The notes under the pieces were generated by a model. It saw nothing but the letters and a program-made list of their open reading frames with translations. It ran no database searches and was not told where the DNA came from. From contig NZ_CP028960.1 of NCBI RefSeq assembly GCF_003071365.1, forward strand, positions 310,001 to 374,000: a stretch of DNA of 64,000 bases, written 5' to 3'. The position numbers and the translations under genes are program-made. The stretch is from Methyloceanibacter sp. wino2 (GTDB lineage: Bacteria; Pseudomonadota; Alphaproteobacteria; Rhizobiales; Methyloligellaceae). Position 1 is the stretch's first letter; each line of letters starts with the position of its first letter. Positions 4,009 through 43,966 of the stretch are shown piece by piece.

Positions 4009-4451
4009 ATGGCCAAGCCGATCTACATCCTGAATGGCCCGAACCTGAACCTGCTGGGGACTCGCGAACCGGAGGTCTACGGAACCGAGACCCTGGCCGA
4101 TCTGGAGCAGCGCTGCACCCGCAAGGCCGAGGCGCTGGGGCTTGCGGTCGAGTTCCGGCAGAGCAACGGCGAGAGCGAGCTTGTGGACTGGATCCAAGAG
4201 GCACGCACCAGGGGTGCCGGCCTCATCGTCAACGCGGGCGCCTATTCGCATACTTCAATAGCCATGCTCGATGCATTGCTTGCCTGCGACGTGCCTGTCG
4301 TCGAGGTTCACCTATCGAATATCTTCAGGCGCGAAGCATTCCGCCACCAATCCTATATTTCCGGGGCCGCGAAGGGGTAATCTGCGGTTTCGGTGGCCTT
4401 GGCTACGAACTCGCGATCGAGGCTCTGGCCTCCGCGATTTCCGACGCCTGA
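4009..4451 (+). CDS. aroQ: 3-Dehydroquinate dehydratase type II, interrupted by a one-base frameshift near its end
   Basis: Type II dehydroquinase catalyses the third step of the shikimate pathway. The N-terminal signature [17 protein letters not shown] (lid Arg and catalytic Tyr), NAGAYSHTS, and [15 protein letters not shown] are all present. The frame stops at 4378-4380 after AAKG, leaving 123 residues. The next frame continues with the expected C-terminus [19 protein letters not shown] to a TGA at 4449-4451. One extra G in the GGGG run at 4374-4377 would restore a 147-residue protein, the normal family length. An assembly error is more likely than real loss, because three other core genes show the same lesion. 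It is followed at once by accB and accC. Confidence 0.88.
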
Positions 4452-4478
4452 GGGGACGACGACCATGAAAGGACGCCA

Positions 4479-4940
4479 ATGACAAAAGACGGGGGAAGCC
4501 TCGATACGGACCTCATCAGGGAGCTCGCGACGCTTCTAGATGAAACCAGCCTGACGGAAATCGAGATCGAAATCGACGGACGCCGCTTCCGCGTCGCGCG
4601 CAACGTCAATGTGACGGCGGCGGCCGTCGCTGCAGCGCCTGCACCAGCCGCAGTTGAGCATGCGGAGCCGAAGCGCCGCACGCCGTCGGAGGACGCGGGT
4701 GCCCATCCGGGCTCGGTCTCCTCACCGATGGTGGGAACCGCTTATCGCTCTCCCGAGCCTGGAGCGGCGCCATTCATCGAAATCGGCAGCTCGGTAAAGT
4801 CGGGTCAGACGCTTCTCATTATCGAAGCGATGAAGACGATGAACCACATCCCCTCGCCTCAGTCCGGCAAGGTCACGGCAATTCTCGTCGAGGACGGACA
4901 GCCGGTCGAGTTCGGCGAACCCCTCGTCGTGATCGAGTAG
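4479..4940 (+). CDS. accB: Acetyl-CoA carboxylase biotin carboxyl carrier protein
   Basis: This 153-residue protein carries biotin for acetyl-CoA carboxylase, the first step of fatty acid synthesis. The N-terminal helix (residues 8-40) is followed by an Ala/Pro-rich flexible linker (45-75) and the biotinyl domain. The biotin attachment lysine is K119 in EAMKTMN, with the usual [14 protein letters not shown] hammerhead segment before it. AccC begins 16 bp downstream, the standard accBC operon order. The aroQ gene just upstream suggests co-transcription, which is common in alphaproteobacteria. Confidence 0.97.
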
Positions 4941-4956
4941 GAACAGCCAGACAGAA

Positions 4957-40749: not shown

Positions 40750-40995
40750 ATGAAGGCACGCATCACCATCACGCTCAAACCCGGCGTGCTCGATCCGCAA
40801 GGCAAGGCCATCGAAGGGGCGTTGCATGCCTTGGGCTTCGGCGGCGTCGAGGGCGTCCGGCAGGGTAAGTTCATCGAGGTCGAAGTCGCCGAGAGCGATC
40901 CGACCCGCGCCCGCGAAGAAATCGAGCGGATGTGCAAGCAGCTTCTCGCAAACACCATCATTGAGAACTATGCCTATGAGCTCGAGGCGGCGTAA
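40750..40995 (+). CDS. purS: Phosphoribosylformylglycinamidine synthase subunit PurS
   Basis: The 81-residue protein has the PurS pattern (ITLKPGVLDPQGKAIEGALHALGF then EVAESDPTRAREEIERMCKQLLANTIIENYAYE). PurS joins PurQ and PurL into the FGAM synthase complex and helps pass ammonia from PurQ to PurL. It lies 39 bp after purC and 60 bp before purQ. Confidence 0.96.
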   Translation: MKARITITLKPGVLDPQGKAIEGALHALGFGGVEGVRQGKFIEVEVAESDPTRAREEIERMCKQLLANTIIENYAYELEAA

Positions 40996-41055
40996 CCGGC
41001 GCGCCTCGCGCGCAATGGAGACCTTCTCCGCCAGAAGCGAGGCCCTTCGAGACTC

Positions 41056-41745
41056 ATGAAAGCCAGCGTCATCGTTTTTCCGGGATCGAATTGCGACCGC
41101 GACGCGGCTGTCGCCTTGGAGCGCGCCATGGGCGCCGCGCCCAAGATGGTGTGGCACGGCGACTCCGAGCTGCCGAAGAGCGATCTGATCCTGCTCCCTG
41201 GCGGGTTCTCCTACGGCGACTATTTGCGCTCCGGTGCCATGGCGGCGCATTCGCCGATCATGCGCGAGGTCGTGCGCCGGGCCGAGGCCGGTACGCCGGT
41301 GCTCGGCATCTGCAACGGCTTCCAGGTCCTCACCGAGGCGGGACTTCTTCCGGGCGTGCTGATGCGCAACGCGACCCTGCGCTTTATCTGCAAGGATGTC
41401 CGCCTGCGCGTCGAGCGCGACGACACGGCATTCGCCAGCCATTACAAGAAGGACGAAGTGGTGCGCATCCCGATCGCTCATAAGGACGGCTGCTATTTCG
41501 CCGATCCGGGCACGCTCTATCTCCTGGAGAACGAGGGCCGCATCGCGTTCCGCTACTGCGAAGAGGATGGCGCGATCACCGAGGCAGCCAATCCCAATGG
41601 CTCGACGGGCAATATCGCCGGCATCTACAACGACACCGGCACCGTGCTCGGCATGATGCCCCATCCGGAGCGGCTCATCGATCCGGCCCAGTCCGGCACG
41701 GACGGCGCCAAGATGTTCTCCTCTCTCGTGGAGACTCTCCATTGA
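41056..41745 (+). CDS. purQ: Phosphoribosylformylglycinamidine synthase subunit PurQ (glutaminase)
   Basis: This is a 229-residue class I glutamine amidotransferase. The nucleophile cysteine is in [19 protein letters not shown], the N-terminus [12 protein letters not shown] is typical of PurQ, and the His-Glu pair is in GMMPHPERL. It supplies ammonia to PurL. The stop overlaps the TTG start of purL, so the two are translationally coupled. Confidence 0.97.
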
Positions 41746-43966
41746 GCGGGGCGGCAGACGTGAAGCCCGAGACGCCGGGACTCTCCGAAGAGCTCGTTGC
41801 CGAACACGGCATCAGCCCGGAGGAGTACGAGCGTCTTCTGAAGGAGCTGGGGCGGGAGCCCACGCTGACGGAGCTGGGTGTGTTCTCCGTCATGTGGTCG
41901 GAGCACTGCTCTTACAAGTCCTCGCGCGTCTGGCTGAAGAAGCTGCCCACGTCGGGCCCGCAAGTAATCCAGGGTCCGGGCGAGAACGCCGGCGTGGTCA
42001 GCCTCGGGGACGGGCAGGCTGCCGTCTTCAAGATGGAGAGCCACAACCACCCCTCCTATATCGAGCCCTATCAGGGCGCGGCCACGGGTGTCGGCGGCAT
42101 CATGCGCGATGTCTTCACCATGGGCGCGCGGCCCGTCGCCAACATGAACGCGCTGCGCTTCGGCAGCCCGAGCCATCCCAAGACGCGGCACCTGGTTGCC
42201 GGCGTCGTCTCCGGCATCGGCGACTACGGCAATTGCATGGGTGTGCCGACGATCGGCGGCGAGACCAATTTCGACCCCCGCTACAACGACAACATCCTGG
42301 TCAACGCCATGTGCGTCGGACTTGTCGATGCGAACCGCATCTTCAAATCCGCCGCGAAAGGCGTCGGCCTTCCCGTCGTCTATGTGGGCTCCAAGACGGG
42401 CCGCGACGGCATCCACGGCGCCACCATGGCCTCGGCCGAGTTCGACGAGAGCTCCGAGGAGAAGCGCCCGACCGTCCAGGTCGGCGATCCCTTCACGGAG
42501 AAGCTGCTGCTCGAAGCCTGCCTCGAACTGATGAACGAGGACGTCATCATCGCCATCCAGGACATGGGTGCGGCGGGCCTGACATCCTCGTCCGTCGAGA
42601 TGGCGGACAAAGGCGGCGTCGGCATCGATCTCGATCTCGATCTCGTGCCCATGCGCGAAGAGGGCATGACCGCTTACGAGATGCTCCTGTCAGAGAGCCA
42701 GGAACGCATGCTGATGGTGCTGAAGCCCGGCTCCGAGCCCGTGGCCGAACGCATCTTCAAGAAGTGGGAGCTCGACTTCGCCGTCATCGGCAAGACGACA
42801 GACACCGGTCATTTCGTGGCGCACCACAACGGCGTGGTGGAAGCGGACATTCCCCTGCCCGCGCTGGCGCACGCAGCGCCCATCTACGCGCGGCCGTACG
42901 AGAAGCGTGAGCCGCTGCCCACCATCGCGGCCGAAGACGTCACGGCCCCGCCCAGCATCTTGAGCGCGCTGGAGCGCCTGCTCGGCTCACCGCATCTGTC
43001 GTCCCGGCGTTGGATCTACGAGCAATACGACCACATGGTCATGGGTGACACGGTGCAGCGCCCAGGCGGCGATGCCGGCGTCGTCCGCGTACACGGGACC
43101 GACAAGGGCCTCGCGGTCTCTTGCGACGTGACCCCGCGCTATTGCGCCGCCGACCCGTATGAAGGCGGCAAGCAGGCGGTGGCCGAATGCTGGCGGAATC
43201 TCACCGCGACGGGGGCCAAGCCGCTCGCCATCACCGACTGCCTGAATTTCGGCAATCCCGAACGCCCCGAAATCATGGGTGAATTCGTTGGCGCCATCGA
43301 AGGCATGGCGGAAGCGTGCAAGGTTTTCCATTTCCCGGTCGTGTCGGGCAACGTGTCCCTTTACAACGAGACCAACGGCGTCGCGATCCCCCCACCCCGG
43401 CTGTGGGCGGCGTCGGGTTGATCGCCAATATCGCCGATATGGCGGATATGGCGCTGAAGGCTGACGGGGATGTGATCCTGCTGCTTGGCCTCGAGACTGG
43501 TCATCTCGGCCAATCGATCTATATGTCCGTTATGGAAGATCGCCTGGACGGCGCCCCGCCGCCCGTAGACCTTGCCAGCGAACGCGTGATCGGCGACCTG
43601 GTCCGCGGGCTGATCAAGGCCGACACGGTCAACGCGGTCCACGACGTCAGCGATGGCGGTCTGCTGGTGGCGCTCGCCGAAATGGCGATGGCCGGAAAAC
43701 GCGGCGTGGCTTTGGAAGCGCCTCCTGAGGGCATCCCGGCGCACGCGATCTGGTTCGGCGAGGACCAGGGCCGCTACGTGGTCACGGCAACGCCCGACAA
43801 GGTCGACACGATCAAGGATGTCGCAGCCGTCTACAGCGTGCCCGTCCGGGTGATCGGCACCGTCGGTACCGACACGATGACGCTGCCCGGCGAAGCGCCT
43901 CTGCCGCTCGGCATGCTGCGCGCCGCCTATGAAGATTGGTTGCCGCGCTTTATGACGCGGGGATAA
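41742..43966 (+). CDS. purL: Phosphoribosylformylglycinamidine synthase subunit PurL, interrupted by a one-base frameshift
   Basis: The first part, 559 residues to 43421, has the PurL features [35 protein letters not shown] and [17 protein letters not shown]. The frame breaks at the C run at 43388-43393 (six C), after TNGVAIPP. The next frame continues [18 protein letters not shown], then [18 protein letters not shown], and ends at 43966. With seven C the sequence reads [13 protein letters not shown] and gives 741 residues, the normal length for small PurL. PurL is needed for purine synthesis, so a sequencing error is the best explanation. The TTG start overlaps the purQ stop. Confidence 0.93.

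Follow-up and report, generated by a model that had tools for sequence, protein, structure and literature searches.

Frame losses in aroQ, a methyltransferase gene, radC and purL of Methyloceanibacter sp. wino2 as probable single-base assembly errors

Introduction

The genome of Methyloceanibacter sp. wino2 (G000, the genome under study) holds, within a region of 40 kb, four conserved genes whose reading frames are each lost at a short run of G or C. The question this raises is whether aroQ, a methyltransferase gene, radC and purL are broken in the organism itself, or only in its assembly. The stretch analysed here, called the window, is 64,000 bases long (G000:C1:310001-374000). An earlier, sequence-only reading of it had placed the four frame losses at these runs, and both the runs and the loss of frame at each of them were verified in the window (Table 1). 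That reading had also attributed every lesion to one missing base of the run's own type and to homopolymer undercalling in the assembly, had considered real independent decay of aroQ, radC and purL unlikely, and had offered phase variation or programmed slippage as a biological alternative.

Genomes and Comparisons

The wino2 genome is a single contig of 3,209,973 bases with a completeness estimate of 99.99%. It was compared with 16 further genomes of the same genus, three of which (G004, G005 and G014) are mostly collinear with the window and have DNA identities to G000 over purL of 94%, 91% and 87%, respectively; G005 is the other single-contig genome within the genus. For the first part of purL, the top named match among the best 80 loci listed, from which the genome of wino2 itself was possibly excluded, was a Hyphomicrobiales metagenome genome with 78% protein identity. 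At the four lesions, 69 of the 79 relative rows given could be aligned, the remainder failing to span the lesion when searched locally over a short stretch, and some genomes contribute two rows to these alignments.

A census was made of indels private to one of G000, G004, G005 and G014 over G000 230-454 kb and 2,974-3,074 kb, restricted to the 271,994 bases that each of the four genomes covers; all other places, valS among them, were excluded. By the strict coding test, a site had to lie within an ORF with third-position-biased differences on both sides. A per-lesion test based on the frame of G005 was also applied to 32 sites, 9 of which had no ORF of 80 codons and 23 of which had one; the ORFs it chose for the methyltransferase and for C1:3044511 were short and probably in the wrong frame, and the choice at C1:3044511 had no family match. 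For the selection test, ten broken genes were pooled, with valS, the RNase E/G gene, C1:3044511 and mutL omitted, as were the bases within 8 of each lesion. This approach, in which indels are polarised on three relatives and their coding share is set against that of a control genome, makes it possible to distinguish consensus errors from true decay when reads are lacking.

The Four Lesions

Table 1. Broken genes of the window and the sites at which their frames are lost (window positions; rows are those of relatives in the site alignments).
Feature	Position	Strand	Remarks
aroQ, type II 3-dehydroquinate dehydratase	4009..4380	+	123 codons in frame, followed by a premature stop
aroQ lesion	4374..4377	+	One base short versus 17/17 aligned rows (18 given); private to G000
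Class I SAM-dependent methyltransferase (Methyltransf_11)	7888..8687	-	Broken in C-terminal part
Methyltransferase lesion	8079..8081	-	One base short versus 15/15 aligned rows (16 given); private to G000
radC family gene	16802..17561	+	Family match starts past the lesion; one locus in genome
radC lesion	16894..16896	+	One base short versus 10/10 aligned rows (16 given)
purL, FGAM synthase II	41742..43965	+	Sole purL locus in genome; two out-of-frame pieces, both matching the family
purL lesion	43388..43393	+	One base short versus 27/27 aligned rows (29 given)

The earlier reading had proposed that run lengths be compared with those of a relative, and at all four sites every aligned row proved to be one base longer than the wino2 sequence; at radC, however, a longer run was sought among the 10 aligned relative rows and none was found. 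Its claim that one base of the run's own type is missing stood for aroQ and the methyltransferase against their two nearest relatives, but not for radC, nor straightforwardly for purL, where the lesion column differs among relatives. By the strict two-sided test, aroQ, the methyltransferase and purL are all coding at their lesions, each lying in the part of the window that the four genomes share.

In aroQ, the family match stops at profile position 123 of 149, with the stop codon lying just past the lesion. A search of the genus returned a single aroQ match in G000, cut at position 121 and with an internal stop, and found aroQ without an internal stop, matching from position 2 to 137, in 15 of the 16 relatives; G008, which is 80% complete, had no aroQ match in this search. 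The stretch after the lesion holds only one private substitution, which is thin for a test of selection on this gene. A shortened run is a good account of the aroQ lesion. For the methyltransferase a shortened run is a plausible account, and its lesion column, too, varies among relatives. The N-terminal part of the protein matches Methyltransf_11 and other methyltransferase models, and the C-terminal part, when searched alone against the family models, gave no match; in G005 the gene is a single open frame of 273 codons that spans the site. Three private substitutions follow the lesion, none of them at a third position, again a thin test for one gene.

The radC gene failed the strict two-sided test, constraint being weak over its first 67 codons, and it therefore stands outside the 11 coding lesions of the census described below. 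Its G005 counterpart is open through the lesion site and encodes 287 aa, and all 16 of the private wino2 substitutions after the lesion are at third positions. Two of the aligned radC rows, both from the same stretch of G002, are without another base nearby, further on from the site. Homopolymer undercalling would be a likely cause of the radC lesion, and a shortened run may plausibly account for that of purL, in which 9 of 13 private substitutions after the lesion are at third positions. The purL row of G004 has a loss and a gain of its own nearby.

A fifth private one-base deletion, at window position 20165, falls close to the beginning of an acyl-CoA ligase ORF and may lie outside the true coding sequence, as the part matching the family starts only downstream of it; it passed the test based on the G005 frame marginally and failed the strict four-genome test.

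Lesions Across the Genome

The census yielded 24 private frame-breaking indels in G000 (18 one-base losses and 6 one-base gains), 11 of which are coding by the strict test. G005 had 19 such indels, none of them inside coding sequence, and the difference in coding share between the two genomes (11/24 versus 0/19) has a Fisher p of 0.0008. By a looser, one-sided coding test the shares were 20/32 and 3/19, and with the G005 frame 13 of the 23 ORF-bearing sites passed on both sides, valS and, marginally, the deletion at 20165 among them. In G004 there were 96 private frame-breaking indels, of which the strict test placed 66 in coding sequence.

The 11 coding lesions of G000 comprise eight deletions at G/C runs of 3-7 bases and three insertions at A runs of 4-7 bases, in a genome with 63% G+C over the 224 kb sampled. 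Every one is at a run of three or more, and seven are at runs of only 3-5 bases. As background, taken from one of the two stretches, ~20% of randomly chosen positions are no more than one base away from a run of at least three; the contrast is somewhat generous, since a wider span was searched at some of the lesions. Four sites, namely radC, valS, transketolase and C1:3044511, lack a longer run in the nearest relatives, so that homopolymer undercalling was too narrow a diagnosis. Three of the 11 lesions are A-run insertions. The broader diagnosis, indel error in the assembly, held up, with strong support from the privacy of the lesions, the coding shares of 11/24 and 0/19, the state of rpoA and valS, and the unrelaxed selection in ten pooled genes.

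Arithmetic from the census gives ~4 coding lesions per 100 kb and ~130 genome-wide, with two to three expected per 64 kb. That the window is a special local cluster or hot spot was considered and rejected, the number of its lesions being close to the census rate. The putative errors are spread genome-wide and are no property of the 40-kb region.

Indispensable Genes and Selection

Genes well outside the category of the dispensable proved to be affected. The alpha subunit gene rpoA, with its site at C1:3003377, is present in G000 as two overlapping out-of-frame pieces, and a whole match occurs in 16 of 16 relatives within the genus. The match of valS above the cut-off begins at profile position 42 and adjoins a lesion, at C1:231435, private to G000 in a three-way comparison with G004 and G005. 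Private lesions were also present in pabB (aminodeoxychorismate synthase), transketolase, topA (DNA topoisomerase I) and the RNase E/G gene, with further ones in a rarA-like ATPase, a YcjX/DUF463 protein and one ORF without family assignment (C1:3044511). Both ValS and a complete alpha subunit of RNA polymerase are essential to cells, and topA is likewise counted as indispensable. It is the rpoA case that decides in favour of error as the probable origin of the lesions.

If the genes were decaying, the share of substitutions at third positions would be expected to flatten after the lesion. In the ten pooled genes, third positions took 175 of 207 (0.85) G000-private substitutions before the lesions and 120 of 145 (0.83) after them, and in the same genes of G004 the numbers were 173 of 214 before and 123 of 140 after. 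No relaxation of selection after the lesions was found in the pooled genes, single genes having too few substitutions for the test. The undiminished share implies that the lesions are either very recent or absent from the cell.

A mismatch repair gene is itself among the broken ones. The TIGR00585 match of mutL (G000:C1:1056968-1058559, minus strand) comes in two out-of-frame pieces, and between these two family-matching parts the gene is one base short versus 6 of 6 aligned relatives. The mutS gene is whole.

Origin of the Lesions

The four lesions are almost certainly single-base consensus errors of sequencing or assembly, an ordinary artefact, because they are private to G000, each site has one base more in every aligned relative, the same kind of break occurs elsewhere in genes that cells cannot lose, and third-position bias in the pooled genes is undiminished past the break. 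The source would be an incompletely polished long-read assembly, in which bases were mostly lost at short G/C runs and an extra base was occasionally gained at an A run; that the assembly was built from long reads is suggested by its single contig of 3.21 Mb. The reads would then be expected to disagree with the consensus at the lesion sites, and the organism itself most likely has intact copies of aroQ, the methyltransferase gene, radC and purL. Several findings were counted against error: a number of the deletions are at runs of just three bases, the nearest relatives are without a longer run at the four sites named above, the completeness estimate is very high, the single-gene tests of selection are thin, and the one-sided test places 3 of the 19 G005 indels in coding sequence.

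A real mutL defect, if there is one, could also bring about slippage at runs. A mismatch-repair-deficient mutator lineage, subject to true one-base slippage at short runs, e.g., in rich-medium culture, would produce what is seen at the four genes. On rich medium, cells could survive without aroQ, purL and radC. Yet rpoA, valS and topA are broken as well, and a mutator in that state would not be expected to survive; in addition, mutS is whole and most of the coding lesions are at runs of only 3-5 bases. With ~130 coding lesions genome-wide, a chance lesion in mutL is no surprise, and a broken mutL consensus is allowed by assembly error just as well. As the origin of the four lesions, a mutator lineage is accordingly highly improbable. 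A slightly better, still very small, chance goes to a natural mutator lineage with a genuine mutL lesion, in which case some of the indels outside indispensable genes may be true and would come on top of the assembly errors. Hypermutator bacteria deficient in mutS or mutL resemble the wino2 assembly in having single-base indels at runs, and mutL has a lesion in this assembly, but they differ from it in that indispensable genes of G000 are broken too.

Real and recent pseudogenisation of the four genes has in its favour that the lesions do stand in the consensus and that aroQ, radC and purL each have a single locus. It is nevertheless scarcely credible, given that in the ten pooled genes the bias towards third positions continues undiminished past the lesions, that indispensable genes carry the same type of lesion, and that the strict test places no indel of G005, also one contig, within a coding sequence. 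The earlier judgement that independent decay is unlikely was thus borne out by both the pooled selection test and the breakage of indispensable genes. Its biological alternative fared differently. The G or C runs at the four sites are what phase variation or programmed frameshifting would act on, but at 3-6 bases they are short and are not maintained as tracts in relatives, all copies that could be aligned have one base more, and aroQ is free of internal stops in the 15 of 16 relatives within the genus that gave a match. The genes, moreover, are housekeeping genes, and not the surface or contingency genes associated with phase variation. A long conserved repeat tract at the four sites was absent in the aligned relatives, and a slippery site with a conserved change of frame was absent from the aligned rows. 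This alternative was given up as extremely improbable.

Assembly error, in comparison, has close parallels. Indel errors that persist in the consensus of bacterial assemblies made from long reads alone are reportedly the subject of Polypolish. The Kastor report (PMC12007338) describes, for a draft assembly, bases wrongly lost at runs two to eight long, mostly of four to five, in which the lost base was usually the repeated one and in a small share non-repeated bases were involved; erroneous insertions following A or T were also numerous, without a tie to a particular homopolymer. According to a study of nanopore R10.4 data (PMC9262707), many frameshifts need not keep an assembly out of the high-quality tier. 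In these reports (PMC12007338, PMC9262707), the residual errors of long-read-only assemblies resemble the G000 indels, which are of a single base at short runs, with an excess of deletions and with insertions at A; alike, too, is the genome-wide fragmentation of conserved genes despite a high completeness score. A difference is that in Kastor's Pss508 example (PMC12007338) deletions were commoner at A/T runs, whereas the eight coding deletions of G000 are at G/C runs.

The consequence is a warning about quality only: the ~130 coding lesions estimated for G000 are probably consensus errors, its completeness of 99.99% notwithstanding, and this assembly should not be taken as a basis for gene losses that would make the organism an 'aromatic and purine auxotroph' or leave it with 'no RadC'.

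Other Observations

The G004 assembly, in its C13 and C12 stretches, has many more private frame-breaking indels than that of wino2, the nearby loss and gain in purL included, and gene losses apparent in G004 are not to be trusted either. The radC gene of G004 is also interrupted near its 3' end by an insert of ~21 kb (G004:C13:235622-256436; the equivalent place in the window is ~17448-17458), at both ends of which there is an 11-base stretch of radC. Seven of the larger ORFs in this insert were searched; four matched an AraC-type regulator, an autotransporter, a trypsin-like peptidase and a helicase/ResIII protein, the other three had no match, and there was no integrase among the seven.

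Towards the end of the window, on the minus strand at 58991-62194 and 62323-63921, are two adjacent autotransporter beta-domain proteins, portions of both of which align to the same stretches of the relatives.
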